Source: Prochlorococcus marinus CUG1438 (GTDB lineage: Bacteria; Cyanobacteriota; Cyanobacteriia; PCC-6307; Cyanobiaceae). From it: a stretch of 64,000 nucleotides of DNA. Shown in pieces: positions 38,672-48,619 of the stretch; within the stretch, counting starts at the first letter, position 1; each line of letters opens with the position of its first letter. The stretch is taken from assembly GCA_017644325.1 (NCBI GenBank), contig JAEPLS010000001.1:620001-684000 (forward strand), written 5' to 3'. Made by a program: the position numbers and the translations under genes. The notes under the pieces were generated by a model. That model was not told the origin of the DNA. It worked only from the letters and a program-made list of their open reading frames with translations, and made no database searches.

Positions 38672-42799
<4,128 letters not shown>

Positions 42800-42850
42800 A
42801 TATTTTCTATTTTCATTTTTAGTGACTAGAATGAAATCTTTAATTTATAG

Positions 42851-43006
<156 letters not shown>

Positions 43007-43022
43007 GTATAGTTTGAAATAA

Positions 43023-44081
<1,059 letters not shown>

Positions 44082-44150
44082 TATTATCCAAAAATAATTT
44101 TTTAAAAATCTCTTAAACAGGTTATTATTGTCTTAATTCATATTGTATCT

Positions 44151-44276
44151 TTGAGTTTTATTAAGACAAAAATTTTACCTTTTGCTATAGTTACGCTTTT
44201 TGGAATTGCTTTTCTTGCAGTTAGCGCAAGAATTTGGTTGCCAGGGGATATGATGTCCCCTGCTCCCTTAAATTAA
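44151..44276 (+). CDS. Small single-helix membrane protein, function unknown
   Basis: A 41-codon ORF starts at TTG 44151 (AGT TTT ATT) and ends at TAA 44274-44276, between rlmN and the HEAT-repeat gene. The product has a Lys-flanked helix, KILPFAIVTLFGIAFLAVSARIWL, and a short PGDMMSPAPLN tail, a layout typical of conserved one-helix thylakoid proteins. I cannot name a family. Start choice is uncertain, because the frame stays open upstream without a better start. The coding look of the tail and the membrane helix argue that the ORF is real. Confidence 0.65.
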   Translation: MSFIKTKILPFAIVTLFGIAFLAVSARIWLPGDMMSPAPLN

Positions 44277-44291
44277 ATTTTAATTTGTGAA

Positions 44292-45059
44292 ATGACAAAT
44301 AATAAGGATCCTAAGAAAGATAGCCTAGCCGAAATAGCTGTTGACCCTGATGTTTTGGCAAAAGAATTAGCTTTAGAGCTTGAAATAGATCCTTTAGAAC
44401 AAATTGATGAGGATGCTTTTTCAAAAGGTTTAAATATAACTCAAGAATGCAATCAAGCTTTGAAAATGCTTAAAGGTAACAGAGAAGAAAGAATACAGGG
44501 ATTAAGAATATTTTGTGAATATAGAGATCAAAGATCATTCCCTTTTTTATTGCCATTACTTGATCAATCTTGTCCTGTTGAAAGAATGAGTGCGGTATAT
44601 GCTCTAGGCCGTAATCCATGTCCTAGTGCAGTAAAAAAACTTGTTAGTCTTTTGGAGACTGATGATAATGCCTATGTAAGGAGAGCGACTGCATGGAGTC
44701 TAGCTAACTATGATGATCAGATTGTTTTAAAGCCATTAATAAATGCTTTGAAGAATGATGTTGCTGCAGTAAGGTTATGGTCATCAAGTTCGTTAGCCGA
44801 AATTGGTAATGTTTCTTTGGAAAACGCTCAATTAGCAGCAGAACAACTTTTAGTAAGCTTAAAGATAGATAACGAATCGGGCGTGAGGAGTAATTGTATT
44901 TGGTCATTATGTAGATTGTATGAAAAATTGGACAACTCATTTCAAGAAAATTTTATTGATGAATGTACAAAGATAGCCCTTTTTGATAAAGAACCCTCTG
45001 TTATGGAAGAAGCAAAAACTGCTTTAGATTCCATGGGAATGCAAGGTTTTTATAATTAA
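44292..45059 (+). CDS. HEAT-repeat protein
   Basis: The 255-residue protein contains HEAT/PBS-lyase-like helical repeats from about 95 to 230: MSAVYALGRNPCPSAVKKLVSLL, YVRRATAWSLANYDDQIVLKPLINAL and VRLWSSSSLAEIGN. The first 90 residues are acidic. HEAT proteins of this kind act in cyanobacteria as scaffolds or as bilin lyase subunits; the latter is unlikely here, with no phycobilisome genes nearby. It precedes the DUF2997-Ycf35-ferredoxin set in the same direction. Function unknown. Confidence 0.85.
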   Translation: MTNNKDPKKDSLAEIAVDPDVLAKELALELEIDPLEQIDEDAFSKGLNITQECNQALKMLKGNREERIQGLRIFCEYRDQRSFPFLLPLLDQSCPVERMSAVYALGRNPCPSAVKKLVSLLETDDNAYVRRATAWSLANYDDQIVLKPLINALKNDVAAVRLWSSSSLAEIGNVSLENAQLAAEQLLVSLKIDNESGVRSNCIWSLCRLYEKLDNSFQENFIDECTKIALFDKEPSVMEEAKTALDSMGMQGFYN

Positions 45060-45205
45060 GTACATAATTTTTAACTTCAATTCAATAGAACAAAATGAAT
45101 TTATTTGATATTCCAAATAAAATTAAAATTAATTAACCTGTACCAACTGAAACAAAAAATTTTCGTTATCCTATATAAAGTTAAAGTACTCAATACCTGA
45201 ATTTA

Positions 45206-45421
45206 ATGCCTCAAAAAACTTTGAGATTCAAAATTCATCAAGACGGAAGAGTTGAAGAGACTGTTGAGGGGTTTAATGGAGATTCATGTAATGAAGCTAC
45301 AAAAAATCTCGAAGAAGCACTTGGTAAAGTAACAGTTAAAAATAAAACATCTGATGCTTTCATCTCTATTCAAAACGAAAATTTAAAACAATTAAACAAC
45401 GAATCTAATGTCACATTTTAG
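45206..45421 (+). CDS. DUF2997 family protein
   Basis: The 71-residue product is a DUF2997-type small protein: KTLRFKIHQDGRVEETVEGFNGDSCNEATKNLEEALGKV, a beta-hairpin followed by a helix. The Cys in GDSCNEAT is a conserved-looking position. In cyanobacteria this gene is regularly next to ycf35 and a ferredoxin. Its 3' end overlaps ycf35 by 14 bp, which points to coupled translation. The function is not known. Confidence 0.8.
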   Translation: MPQKTLRFKIHQDGRVEETVEGFNGDSCNEATKNLEEALGKVTVKNKTSDAFISIQNENLKQLNNESNVTF

Positions 45422-45800
45422 TACCATTAAAACCCATCTTAAAGAAGCTGAGCCTTTAATTAAAGCTTTAAGCTCGCTTGGCTATAACGTTAACCAAGAA
45501 GAAAAGTTTATCAGAGGTTATAGAGGCATACTTACCGATGTTGATATAAGTATGAATTTGCCTGGGGATACTAAAGTAGGATTTAAATGGAACAATAATT
45601 CTAGCTCATATGAATTAGTAGCTGATCTAGATCTATGGAAATTTGAACTACCGGTAGAAAGATTTATTTCTAAAGTTACTCAAATGTATGCTTATCAAAC
45701 TATTATTTCCACAACAAAAAATGATGGTTATCAACTCGTAGAACAAAAAAATAAAAATGATGGCTCTATAGAGTTGGTTTTAACTAAGTGGGATAATTAA
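45408..45800 (+). CDS. ycf35: Ycf35 (DUF1257)
   Basis: The 130-residue protein matches Ycf35/DUF1257, conserved in cyanobacteria and in red-algal and other plastid genomes. Recognisable parts are MSHFSTIKTHLKEAEPLIKALSSLGY, DTKVGFKWNNNSSSYELVADLDLWKFELPVERFISKVTQMYAY and a basic mid-segment. No enzyme motif is present. Overlap with DUF2997 upstream and the nine-base gap to the ferredoxin gene indicate one transcript. Function has not been settled in the literature I know. Confidence 0.86.
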   Translation: MSHFSTIKTHLKEAEPLIKALSSLGYNVNQEEKFIRGYRGILTDVDISMNLPGDTKVGFKWNNNSSSYELVADLDLWKFELPVERFISKVTQMYAYQTIISTTKNDGYQLVEQKNKNDGSIELVLTKWDN

Positions 45801-45809
45801 TGAAAGAAT

Positions 45810-46169
45810 ATGGATTTCACCGATCCATTTAATAATGCTGAAGAAAATATAGAAATTACAGGTTGGGAACCAGTTCTTGGTGGTCAGTTAGCCGACAAAG
45901 CTGTATGGGTTGATGAAGCTAAATGTATTGGGTGTAAATACTGTGTACACGTTGCTTCGAATACTTTCATAGTTGATGAATTTCATGGCAGAAGTCGAGC
46001 AATTAGACAAGATGGAGATAGTGTTGATGTTATACAAGAAGCAATAGATACCTGCCCTGTTGATTGCATTCACTGGGTCAAGTTTGAAGAATTGGATAAT
46101 TTAGAAAATAGCCTCAATAGGGATATGTTTCAAACATTTGGAAAACCGCCAAGAATGAATAAATATTGA
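45810..46169 (+). CDS. 4Fe-4S ferredoxin
   Basis: The 119-residue protein is a bacterial-type ferredoxin with a partly degenerate second cluster. One cluster can be built from C39, C42, C45 and C82; C86 is a further cysteine in CPVDC. A second complete four-Cys set is absent. The rest is a conserved cyanobacterial extension (WVKFEELDNLE). Electron transfer to the adjacent aldo/keto reductase is plausible because their genes overlap by four bases (TTGA). Confidence 0.88.
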   Translation: MDFTDPFNNAEENIEITGWEPVLGGQLADKAVWVDEAKCIGCKYCVHVASNTFIVDEFHGRSRAIRQDGDSVDVIQEAIDTCPVDCIHWVKFEELDNLENSLNRDMFQTFGKPPRMNKY

Positions 46170-46177
46170 TTTCAAAT

Positions 46178-47371
46178 ATGCAATATCGTAGATTTGGCCG
46201 AACCAATATAAAGATTCCTATTTTATCTTTGGGTGGAATGAGATTTCAAAAAAGTTGGGATCAACTAGATTTTTCTGAGATTTCATATCAAGAACAAAAT
46301 AAGGTAGAAACTATATTAAATCTGGCAAGTAAATATGGCTTAAGTCATATAGAAACTGCTAAATACTATGGAACCTCAGAAGTGCAATTAGGAGTGGCCT
46401 TCAAAAATAATAATAAAATCCCAAATATTATTCAAACTAAGATTCCTCCAAGTAGTGATCCAAAAATCTTTGAGAGAGATGTTATGACGAGCATTGAAAA
46501 ATTGAATGTTAAAAAAATTGATTTACTAGCAATACATGGTATTAATACAGCTGAACATTTACATCAGGCTATTAGAAGTGGAGGTTGCATTGACATTCTG
46601 AGAAATTTACAAAAAAAAAATTTAATTGGATCTATTGGATTCTCTACTCATGGAAAATCTTCCCTCATTAGGAAGGCCATATCAACAAACTTTTTTGATT
46701 ATGTAAATTTGCACTGGTATTTTATCAATCAAGAAAATACAAAGGTTATTAATTTAGCCAAAAAGTATGACCTTGGAGTTTTCATTATAAGTCCAACCGA
46801 TAAAGGGGGACATCTTCATACTCCCTCAACAAAAATGATTGAACTTTGTAGTCCATTGCATCCAATAGTTTTTAATGATCTTTTTTGCTTAAGTAATAAA
46901 AACGTTCATACTCTTAGTGTGGGCATTGCAAAAGAGACGGATTTTGATTTACATTTAAAAGCTGTCTCTTTATTATCAGAATCTGAGCAATATCTTCCAA
47001 AGATAATAAACAGATTAATGCAGGAATCTATTAATACTTTAGGTTTAGAGTGGTATCAAAATTGGAATAGAAATCTACCGAGCTGGGAACATACACCAGG
47101 AAATATTAATATTCCAATTCTGCTTTGGCTTTCAAATTTAATAGATTGGTTGGACATGGAAGGGTTTGCAAAAGCTAGATATCAATTACTTGGTAATGGA
47201 AGTCACTGGTTTCCTGGATGTAACGCTAATTTATTAGATGTAGAAGTTTCTGAAAGGCAATTAATGAAAGTTTTAGAAGGTCACATAAATCCAAATAAAG
47301 TTATAAATAAATTGAGAACTTTAAAAGAAAAGTTTGGAGATAATGTTGTTACAAGATTATCAAATAAATAA
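46178..47371 (+). CDS. Aldo/keto reductase family protein
   Basis: This protein of about 397 residues (starting at ATG 46178, MQYRRFGRTNIKIP) has the aldo/keto reductase TIM barrel: LSLGGMRF, THIETAKYYG-type Tyr region (HIETAKYYGTSE), the DLLAIHGI strand, and IGFSTHGKSS. The catalytic Asp of the family is replaced by Glu in ET-AKYYG. The C-terminal 120 residues are an extra helical region with Cys (HWFPGCN), as in cyanobacterial members linked to 4Fe-4S ferredoxins. A TTG at 46166 overlapping the ferredoxin stop would add four residues. Substrate unknown. Confidence 0.85.
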   Translation: MQYRRFGRTNIKIPILSLGGMRFQKSWDQLDFSEISYQEQNKVETILNLASKYGLSHIETAKYYGTSEVQLGVAFKNNNKIPNIIQTKIPPSSDPKIFERDVMTSIEKLNVKKIDLLAIHGINTAEHLHQAIRSGGCIDILRNLQKKNLIGSIGFSTHGKSSLIRKAISTNFFDYVNLHWYFINQENTKVINLAKKYDLGVFIISPTDKGGHLHTPSTKMIELCSPLHPIVFNDLFCLSNKNVHTLSVGIAKETDFDLHLKAVSLLSESEQYLPKIINRLMQESINTLGLEWYQNWNRNLPSWEHTPGNINIPILLWLSNLIDWLDMEGFAKARYQLLGNGSHWFPGCNANLLDVEVSERQLMKVLEGHINPNKVINKLRTLKEKFGDNVVTRLSNK

Positions 47372-47373
47372 TT

Positions 47374-48129
47374 TTATAATGGATTTTTCTCTGCCTTGCC
47401 AACTTTTCTTGGATAAATTGTTGGGCAAACATTTTTTGGTTGAATAAGAATAATATTTCGGGTACCTTTACTTCTCGGTAACAGAATCTTCTTTTTTTCT
47501 TTAAATTTTCCTCCTAATATTTCTAAAGTTTTTTCTAGATTTTTACTTTCTTCATCAGTCCATTTGCCACAGTATAAAACTCCTAAACCTTCTTTCTTTA
47601 GCATTGGTAATATATATTCTGAAACTGTTGATGGATTACTCACTGCTCTTGTGGTAGCTATATTGAAGCTATTTCTCATTGATGATTGATGTGCCACGTT
47701 TTCAATGCGATCATTAATTACATGAATATTGTTTTGGAAATTGATCTCTTTAATAAGACTTCTTAACGCATCTGTTTTCTTTTTGGAAGAATCAATCAGA
47801 TATATTTCTGAATTAGGATGAATTATGGCATAAGCTATACCAGGGAAGCCACAGCCAGATCCAATATCTAAAAATTTCTGATTATCAAAATTAATATTCG
47901 GAAAAGCTTTAAATGGCCAAATACTGTCAAAAACTTGAGATACCCAATAATCATCTCCATTAATTAATCTCGTTAAATTGGTTTTTTTATTTAATTCTTC
48001 AATTTTCATTTGCAATTCTTGAAACATAATTATTTCTTCTTTAGTTAGTAAGGTTGAAATCTCTTTGGGAATGTTTTGTTTTTTCATTTCGTTATAAATA
48101 TAAAATTCTTTACTAATTATTAAATACAT
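47374..48129 (-). CDS. rsmG: 16S rRNA (G527-N7) methyltransferase RsmG
   Basis: RsmG (GidB) methylates G527 of 16S rRNA. The SAM motif FLDIGSGCGFPGIAYAI and the later ATTRAVSNPST mark it clearly. The largest ORF has 251 residues, but the first 14 (MYLIISKEFYIYNE) look non-native; starting at Met15 (minus strand, 48087) gives MKKQNIPKEIS and a normal length. It ends 2 bp from the convergent aldo/keto reductase gene. Confidence 0.93.
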   Translation of the reverse strand: MYLIISKEFYIYNEMKKQNIPKEISTLLTKEEIIMFQELQMKIEELNKKTNLTRLINGDDYWVSQVFDSIWPFKAFPNINFDNQKFLDIGSGCGFPGIAYAIIHPNSEIYLIDSSKKKTDALRSLIKEINFQNNIHVINDRIENVAHQSSMRNSFNIATTRAVSNPSTVSEYILPMLKKEGLGVLYCGKWTDEESKNLEKTLEILGGKFKEKKKILLPRSKGTRNIILIQPKNVCPTIYPRKVGKAEKNPL

Positions 48130-48178
48130 TCTATTTAGTAAAAATTTATTAGAATTGCATTATTAATAAAAGATTATT

Positions 48179-48619
48179 TTGAAACGGAAAATTTCTTATT
48201 ACAAAATTTTAGGTGTAAATGAAAATGCATCAAATCATGAATTAAGAAAGGCATTTTGTAAACTCTCTATTGAGTTGCATCCTGATACAACTTCACTAGA
48301 TATTGAAGACGCGAAGGGTAAATTCCAAGAAGTTTTAGAAGCTTATGAAAATCTAAATAATAGTAATTTGAGGAAGAAATATGATAATAAAATGAAGGAA
48401 AAGTCCAGAAGTAAAAATAATTCTAATTTTTTGAATAATTTAATAATCGATTCTAATAATCAAAATATTGTGGGTAATAGAAGACCTTTTTCAAATGGAG
48501 AATTGTTTTCATTATTTCTTTTAATTATTATCATATCTATATGTTTGATCTGTTCAATTTTAATCGCATCATTTACAGGTAAAGAATTAGATACAATTCC
48601 AATCTGGCTAATCAAATGA
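48179..48619 (+). CDS. J-domain membrane protein (DnaJ-like)
   Basis: A type III J-protein of 146 residues. The J-domain covers about 6-68, with the HPD triad at H34-P35-D36, which stimulates Hsp70 ATPase. It lacks the G/F-rich, zinc-finger and substrate-binding domains of DnaJ. The C-terminus has one membrane helix (about 107-132). The start is TTG 48179. It probably recruits DnaK to a membrane. A DUF3143 gene follows after 14 bp, so the two may be cotranscribed. Confidence 0.88.
   Translation: MKRKISYYKILGVNENASNHELRKAFCKLSIELHPDTTSLDIEDAKGKFQEVLEAYENLNNSNLRKKYDNKMKEKSRSKNNSNFLNNLIIDSNNQNIVGNRRPFSNGELFSLFLLIIIISICLICSILIASFTGKELDTIPIWLIK

Follow-up and report, generated by a model that had tools for sequence, protein, structure and literature searches.

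The DUF2997-Ycf35 gene pair beside Fed7 in Prochlorococcus marinus CUG1438 and its possible relation to Ycf46-class AAA+ ATPases

Organization of the locus

The window analysed here is a 64,000-nucleotide stretch of the 1.63-Mb genome of Prochlorococcus marinus CUG1438 (GenBank assembly GCA_017644325.1, contig JAEPLS010000001.1, positions 620,001 to 684,000 of the forward strand). The element under study is a run of five genes at positions 44292-47371, in which genes for a DUF2997 protein, the DUF1257 protein Ycf35 and the ferredoxin Fed7 stand between a HEAT-repeat gene and an aldo/keto reductase (AKR) gene. Away from Fed7, genes of the Ycf35 family were mostly found beside genes for AAA+ ATPases of the Ycf46 class, and DUF2997 and Ycf35 may be adaptors of such an ATPase. 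Pfam matches above the cut-off were obtained for each of the five proteins:

44292..45059, + strand: HEAT-repeat protein, 255 amino acids (Pfam HEAT_2, 1.6e-21)
45206..45421, + strand: DUF2997 protein, 71 amino acids, with the invariant Cys28 (Pfam PF11211, 5.8e-18)
45408..45800, + strand: Ycf35 (DUF1257), 130 amino acids (Pfam PF06868, 4.8e-30)
45810..46169, + strand: Fed7-type single-cluster [4Fe-4S] ferredoxin, 119 amino acids (Pfam Fer4_13, 2.3e-14)
46166..47371, + strand: aldo/keto reductase (Pfam PF00248, 1.5e-18)

The five + strand open reading frames (ORFs) lie in the place and order given by an earlier reading of the sequence alone (the sequence-only reading), which also described the last four correctly as overlapping or nearly abutting. 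The HEAT and DUF2997 genes are separated by 146 bp, DUF2997 and ycf35 overlap by 14 bp, and ycf35 and fed7 are 9 bp apart; fed7 and the AKR gene overlap by 4 bp if the latter begins at TTG 46166, or are separated by 8 bp if it begins at the in-frame ATG 46178 (MQYRRFGRT...), which is the likelier start. A scan of positions 42700-48200 against Rfam yielded no match, and promoter- or terminator-like sites in 44050-47500 showed no excess over a shuffled background.

The conserved core and its company

The trio itself is already known: DUF2997-ycf35-fed7 has been published as the conserved cyanobacterial 'cluster g' (Cassier-Chauvat and Chauvat 2014, PMC4284462; papers are cited here by PMC accession), with Prochlorococcus strains labelled g' and sll0662 as the fed7 gene of Synechocystis. 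Fed7 is present in 53 of 59 genomes of the class, and among the 30 loci fetched Ycf35 stands beside it in all 30 and DUF2997 in 29; the 48 named Fed7-linked loci all carry Fed7, and 47 carry DUF2997. One of the six class genomes without Fed7 (G177) has two fetched DUF1257 genes, both of non-Fed7 types (L153, L168). Co-regulation of the trio in Synechocystis is published: under standard conditions ssl1263, fed7 and ycf35 all depend on SigD, and the study names them as a group (PMC8875361). The earlier claim that DUF2997, Ycf35 and the ferredoxin form one conserved unit is borne out by the counts at the Fed7 loci, by cluster g and by the joint SigD dependence.

The window ferredoxin has the cysteine pattern of Fed7 (CxxCxxC with a distal and an extra cysteine), its Cys39/42/45/82/86 corresponding to Cys53/56/59/96/100 of Synechocystis Fed7 at a constant offset of 14; its relatives in the PDB were ordinary. 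In Synechocystis these five cysteines have been tested by mutants, C100 is needed for the interaction with FtrC, and Fed7 interacts with both FtrC and the DnaJ protein Sll1384; fed7 is induced by iron starvation and by high light, and a fed7 mutant is sensitive to iron limitation (PMC4284462). Ycf35 protein was up-regulated under copper/iron deduction (PMC8141849), and Ycf35 and a DUF2997 protein are among the predictors of high- versus low-light Prochlorococcus ecotype (preprint PMC13131479).

One explanation confines the pair to this core: DUF2997 and Ycf35 would serve the [4Fe-4S] cluster of Fed7 by insertion, protection or hand-off, and the AAA+ neighbours of their paralogues would be irrelevant. 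The strict linkage at the fetched Fed7 loci, the joint SigD dependence and the iron responses of fed7 and its mutant all speak for it, as does the lack of Ycf46 near Fed7-linked loci described below; the viral and plasmid copies, also below, do not.

The HEAT, DUF2997, ycf35, fed7, AKR, rsmG and DnaJ genes were found together in 13 of 13 sampled genomes of the window's family (12 loci and the window), and the HEAT gene accompanies the core also in L028 and L101. A named Prochlorococcus relative (L124) shares this gene run. An AKR match was obtained in 59 of 59 class genomes, yet beside fed7 in only 7 of the 53 with Fed7 (counted by hand from coordinates, about ten of the 53 giving only a weaker or cut AKR match). 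Outside the window's family, two genomes, both from one further family, have the AKR gene near fed7, and in one of them (L028) a methyltransferase gene stands between the two genes. The gene run exceeds chance, because the core recurs across cyanobacteria and the five genes stay together throughout the sampled family; the HEAT and AKR genes are local additions to the locus and do not belong to the conserved core.

The sequence-only reading had joined all five genes into a single redox module, in which Fed7 would feed electrons to the AKR and the other proteins would regulate. The near-abutting genes and the constancy within the family, with the two genomes of the other family, are what can be said for it. 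AKRs use NAD(P)H, and the window AKR has four scattered cysteines, no CxxCxxC-type Fe-S motif and ordinary relatives in the PDB. The survey of gene order in cyanobacteria, which that reading had named as its own check, found the AKR gene occurring independently of fed7 in most genomes, the outcome by which that reading would, for this gene, be refuted, and DUF2997-Ycf35 occurs without Fed7 in viral contigs and on plasmids; the five-gene module is not supported and is considered very improbable.

Relatives of the pair beside AAA+ genes

DUF1257 was detected by profile search in 98 of 194 Cyanobacteriota genomes. Two to four copies were present in 74 of the 75 DUF1257-bearing genomes of the same class outside the window's family, and one in each of the five genomes of the window's genus. 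A census of neighbours covered 88 of the DUF1257 loci that the profile search had located in Cyanobacteriota, in a selection made by us: the 30 loci first returned (all Fed7-linked), 12 from other genomes of family f1, 22 type-C matches, 3 from non-photosynthetic genomes, and every type-B and type-D match among the matches listed. Neighbours were labelled using phmmer with seed proteins at E 1e-4, and Pfam was applied to representatives, not to every gene.

Fed7 lies within 400 bp of DUF1257 in 42 of the 88 loci, and DUF2997 lies within the same distance in all 42. Among the 46 others, a Ycf46-class AAA+ gene is found on the same strand within 5 kb in 38 and within 400 bp in 34, accompanied on either strand by Hsp70-like (12 loci) and GrpE-like (12 loci) genes and in no case by Fed7. 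The 32 named non-Fed7 loci have an AAA+ gene in 20, DUF2997 in 9, an Hsp70-like gene in 9 and all four, counting a GrpE-like gene, in 6; an Hsp70-like gene was seen at 1 of the 48 named Fed7-linked loci. The order AAA+, DUF1257, DUF2997, GrpE-like, Hsp70-like occurs in L058, L059 (AAA+ in two pieces), L061 and L143, and a Pseudanabaena plasmid has the order grpE, Hsp70, DUF1257, ATPase, unknown gene, DUF2997, AAA. In type-C loci ycf46 is followed by DUF1257 in 22 of the 22 fetched.

The association extends beyond cyanobacteria. Plasmids of Bacillus licheniformis, B. halotolerans and Paenibacillus urinalis carry the arrangement AAA-x-DUF1257-(x)-DUF2997. In Chloroflexi, one locus has an AAA+ gene with the pair (L088) and two have the pair with Hsp70-like genes (L093, L299); the family is rare there, DUF1257 being found in 2 of 151 Chloroflexota genomes, one of them the centre genome picked for having it. 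Pseudomonas phage SM1 (L331:2441-6300) and Aeromonas phage HJ05 (L332:2477-5582) encode a Ycf46-class AAA+ protein, one or two unknown genes, DUF1257 and DUF2997, the last two passing the Pfam cut-offs in both phages. AAA+ partners from seven sources align with one another over 489-537 residues, and an FtsH aligns with these over only 187-251. The Ycf46 of the window genome is matched along its length, at 32-45% identity over 489-510 residues, by the partners from Bacillus, from Paenibacillus, from a Planktothrix plasmid, from Chloroflexi and from cyanobacteria. Ycf46 matches are also common on enterobacterial plasmids. A tblastn search of the phage collection with the Bacillus DUF1257 gave no match, and the PADLOC output consisted of generic AAA matches (IetA, TRIP13) with one weak match of Hsp70-like type.

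That the DUF2997-Ycf35 (DUF1257) pair reaches far beyond photosynthesis is apparently a new observation, and it appears to be new as well that its family is usually met in the neighbourhood of an AAA+/Hsp70 gene set, whether in bacteria, on plasmids or in phages; a literature search found no paper linking DUF2997/DUF1257, Ycf35 and Ycf46 to one another. The earlier view of Ycf35 as a photosynthetic-lineage protein holds for one branch of DUF1257. It does not extend to most of the other copies examined, which adjoin AAA+ genes, nor to the copies in non-photosynthetic bacteria and in the Pseudomonas and Aeromonas phages.

These associations could also reflect a neighbourhood without shared function, in which common control by iron and high light would hold small stress genes together at the Fed7 loci and likewise at the DUF1257/AAA+ loci. 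The fed7 and ycf46 operons are indeed both responsive to iron and light stress (PMC4284462; PMC7496141). Set against this are the co-location on Bacillus and Paenibacillus plasmids and in the Pseudomonas and Aeromonas phages, where such regulons are unexpected, and the constancy of the partners across differing arrangements, which leave this explanation improbable.

Several arrangements were observed in passing. Some type-B DUF1257 genes (L062:3499-4695, L150:5715-6905) have no AAA+ gene nearby and stand beside genes that by eye are WD40-like and PAS histidine-kinase-like. An AbiEii-like AAA_21 ATPase gene stands with the DUF1257/DUF2997/AAA+ set in a type-D locus (L036:6187-7065) and on the Pseudanabaena plasmid (L361:3170-4234). 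On a Treponema plasmid a DUF1257 gene (L055:6001-6408) lies amid contractile-tail genes, with a DUF2997 gene elsewhere on the plasmid.

Copies in marine viruses

A scan of marine viral sequences returned 536 relatives, and the counts given here use the best 80 (L218-L297). DUF2997 lies directly upstream of Ycf35 in 75 of these 80 contigs; three of the five exceptions are at contig ends, in L288 the DUF2997 ORF overlaps further, and L218 shows none. Fed7, Ycf46 and Hsp70-like genes were found in none of the 80 contigs within the stretch examined. The cyanophages P-SSM2 (L051:4802-5381) and P-SSM7 (L052:4832-5384) contain overlapping DUF2997-ycf35 genes, annotated as hypothetical proteins in both records, and the pair of P-SSM7 lies near psbA, hli and ferredoxin genes. 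No paper pairing cyanophages with ycf35 was found in a literature search.

A tree was computed from 88 DUF1257 proteins chosen by us (129 columns; an improbable N-terminal extension was left on the row N_L355, and the N-terminus of SM1 was missing); many of its forks are open, and only the groupings given next are used here. Of 18 viral copies, 17 group together (100/98), nested in a clade of Prochlorococcus and Synechococcus copies (100/98) that is itself enclosed by a clade of Fed7-linked and viral copies (98/96); the 18th (L218) falls near the Chloroflexi copies. Since the viral clade lies inside the host clade and the contigs show no Fed7, these phages hold a host-like pair without the ferredoxin. 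This speaks against a role confined to the Fed7 cluster, as do the plasmids and phages in which, over the stretches seen, DUF1257 and DUF2997 stand without Fed7 and the invariant cysteine is kept; we regard such a role as unlikely.

Occurrence in genomes without photosynthesis

Ten DUF1257-bearing Cyanobacteriota lack a psbA-type gene. DUF2997 was found in eight of them and a strong Ycf46-class match in nine (one partial); a clear Fed7 was found in none of the ten, the one match (2.5e-5) containing an internal stop. In the reduced genomes G147 and G183, congeners of the intact G143, photosystem II (psbA-type) genes are disrupted or absent, and neither genome yielded Fed7. DUF1257 is absent from G147 and represented by weak matches only in G183, and broken remnants persist of DUF2997 in G147 (G147:C1:1077925-1078038) and of Ycf46 in G183 (G183:C1:761205-761765). 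Because Fed7 was not clearly found in the ten genomes and the two reduced congeners, it is tied to photosynthesis: the Fed7-linked version accompanies oxygenic photosynthesis, and DUF1257, DUF2997 and the Ycf46-class AAA+ protein do not require it.

Sequence and predicted structure

The cysteine of DUF2997 (Cys28 in the window) is identical in 51 of 51 aligned sequences. All of the 170 distinct ORFs have it, 167 of them recognized by motif and 3 by eye. It is also found in phages SM1 and HJ05 and, as far as visible, in the eight ORFs of the non-photosynthetic genomes, two of which are cut off before the site; in the broken remnant of G147 it is lost. The window Ycf35 begins with MSHF and contains no cysteine. 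A start of the form MSH[FIL] was seen in 96 of 97 DUF1257 rows, the miss being cut by a contig end; only rows from profile or tblastn searches were counted, since the other locus search had used the MSHF pattern. The DUF1257 proteins of SM1 and HJ05 begin with MSHT, for SM1 on the assumption of an upstream start.

The AlphaFold2 model of Ycf35 shows an alpha/beta domain with a mean predicted local distance difference test (pLDDT) score of 89.4. Comparison with the KA1-like fold (AMPK alpha C-terminal type) gave at best Z 6.7 over 76 residues at 3.0 Å, among tied rows and in a commonly seen score range, and the best sequence-profile matches in the PDB (E 0.76 for Ycf35, 0.042 for DUF2997) were uninformative.

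In the type-C Ycf46 proteins the Walker A motif reads GVPGCGKS in 22 of 22, the cysteine being residue 270 in L037. Cys269 of Slr0374, the Ycf46 of Synechocystis, was more reduced in the light than in the dark (91.6% versus 78.3%, PMC13214033). Because the type-C motif carries a cysteine at the matching place, the residue that responds to light probably lies in the ATP-binding loop. Inactivation of ycf46 lowers the activity of the carbonic anhydrase EcaB, and the ycf46 operon responds to iron, light and oxidative stress (PMC7496141). Both ycf35 and ycf46 are plastid-encoded in many red algae, and across 127 plastid genomes they showed 81.8% and 87.9% concordance, respectively, with marine or freshwater habitat (PMC5940233).

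Proposed role of DUF2997 and Ycf35

The explanation that we favour, tentatively and with a little less than even confidence, is that DUF2997 and Ycf35 are the adaptor pair of a Ycf46-class AAA+ machine which in oxygenic phototrophs is wired to Fed7. The two would act as small adaptor subunits serving an ATPase that remodels client proteins, perhaps photosynthesis or CO2-uptake proteins, and some versions would add a dedicated Hsp70/GrpE to the ATPase and the pair. Where the pair shares an operon with Fed7, as one copy does in oxygenic cyanobacteria, light-driven electrons would switch it, the most plausible route being transfer from Fed7 to the invariant DUF2997 cysteine; the HEAT and AKR genes would have been added to the locus in the branch of the marine picocyanobacteria and in lineages close to it. 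The role is based on the census, on the plasmid, Chloroflexi and phage loci, on the alignments of the AAA+ partners, on the DUF2997 cysteine, and on the co-occurrence of the parts in the ten genomes without psbA and their decay in the two reduced ones; the associations among the genes are shown, and the complex, the adaptor function, the electron transfer and the clients are inferred. The EcaB, stress-response and Cys269 data are compatible with this role and do not prove it.

Several results weigh against an adaptor role. A nearby AAA+ gene is wanting in 8 of the 46 non-Fed7 census rows and in 12 of the 32 named non-Fed7 loci, several of these on short contigs. No Ycf46 gene was found near Fed7-linked loci, either in the 42 census rows (30 of them with flanks of about 1.5 kb) or in the 48 named loci, for most of which the flanks extended to 5 kb; the pair at these loci may thus work with a different partner. 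The Ycf46 of the window genome has the Walker A motif GAQGTGKS, with Thr in place of Cys, and slr0376, which follows ycf46 in Synechocystis, was mainly monocistronic in one study (PMC7283877). In the ten genomes without psbA, DUF1257, DUF2997 and AAA+ genes stand side by side only in G016 (L355), one of eight DUF2997 loci, and DUF1257 lies beside none of the nine AAA+ loci fetched (flanks of about 1.5 kb), co-occurrence thus exceeding co-location; because co-location fails in most of these genomes, the adaptor role is slightly weakened and a service role for Fed7 correspondingly raised. Mycobacteriophage Catdawg encodes a Ycf46-class ATPase with no pair detected among the five neighbours scanned. 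The single-chain model of DUF2997 has a mean pLDDT of 61, which would fit a subunit that folds on a partner and proves nothing, and Foldseek gave no match at E <=0.001 and no informative relative for Ycf35. The literature consulted contained no report of physical interaction among Ycf35, DUF2997, Ycf46 and Fed7.

A broader version of the adaptor hypothesis is possible and more doubtful. Under it, Ycf35 and DUF2997 would be the adaptors of a widespread, undescribed remodelling machine of three to five parts (Ycf46-class AAA+, DUF1257, DUF2997 and often Hsp70-like and GrpE-like proteins) distributed over cyanobacteria, Chloroflexi, plasmids of Bacilli and phages. One copy would be under ferredoxin control in oxygenic phototrophs through the invariant DUF2997 cysteine, and marine cyanophages would have taken the pair from their hosts and would use it in infection to steer the machine of the host.

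Ycf35 is a plastid-encoded protein without known function, and its tie with DUF2997 and Ycf46 gives a testable role for two plastid 'ycf' proteins. The module would also name a set of genes on plasmids and in phages well outside photosynthesis. If the cyanophage pair consists of host-derived helper genes, it joins psbA and hli among the functions that phages maintain in the marine cyanobacteria they infect, and the control points would then include a step of chaperone type and not only electron transport.

Neighbouring genes

Two genes lie immediately downstream of the AKR gene:

47374..48129, - strand: rsmG, which closes the run (NCBIfam TIGR00138, above the cut-off)
48179..48619, + strand: DUF3143-linked DnaJ-domain protein

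This DnaJ gene, 2 kb downstream, was considered as the published partner of Fed7 and rejected as probably a different one, since it belongs to the DUF3143-linked DnaJ group: its matches to DUF3143-linked DnaJ proteins were at E 3e-22 to 3e-15, and its best match to ORFs near HisZ was at 9e-9 (these ORFs were picked with a coarse HPD filter, which let in HisZ itself as HISZ_L300). At DUF3143 loci a DnaJ gene was labelled beside DUF3143 in 26 of 30. Sll1384 is presumed to be the HisZ-linked DnaJ, judging from cluster c of the review and from gene numbers.

Across the family, most genomes outside the window's genus have a gene of about 580-590 amino acids, like a membrane transporter by eye, between rlmN and the HEAT gene, as does L124 (L048:6766-8532, L042:6691-8463, L049, L160, L161, L162, L164, L124); the five genomes of that genus showed none.

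Comparison with known systems

By gene order the window holds DUF2997 and DUF1257 together and has no Ycf46-class AAA+ gene adjacent to them. The single Ycf46 of the genome is encoded elsewhere (G000:C1:902633-904078), and the only DUF1257 copy is the redox-linked one; the locus is for that reason not a member of the AAA+/DUF1257/DUF2997 module, and its pair is a relative only.

In the Ycf46 operon slr0373-slr0374-slr0376 of Synechocystis, slr0376 occupies the position that DUF1257 takes after ycf46 in all 22 type-C loci, and by this order slr0376 would be a DUF1257 gene. In the window genome, by comparison, Ycf46 stands apart and no DUF1257 was detected beside it.

With the Fed7 redox pathway of Synechocystis (Fed1-FtrC-Fed7-glutaredoxin 2, and Fed7-DnaJ) the window ferredoxin shares all five cysteines at identical spacing, whereas the neighbouring DnaJ of the window is DUF3143-linked; Sll1384, from its presumed context, would be a HisZ-linked DnaJ.

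The closest counterpart is cluster g, for which the available part of the review (PMC4284462) proposes no function for DUF2997 or Ycf35 and draws no link to an AAA+ ATPase. The window contains the same three genes, DUF2997, DUF1257 and the [4Fe-4S] ferredoxin Fed7, adjacent to one another on the same strand and in the same order, and differs from cluster g in the additional HEAT gene upstream and AKR gene downstream.

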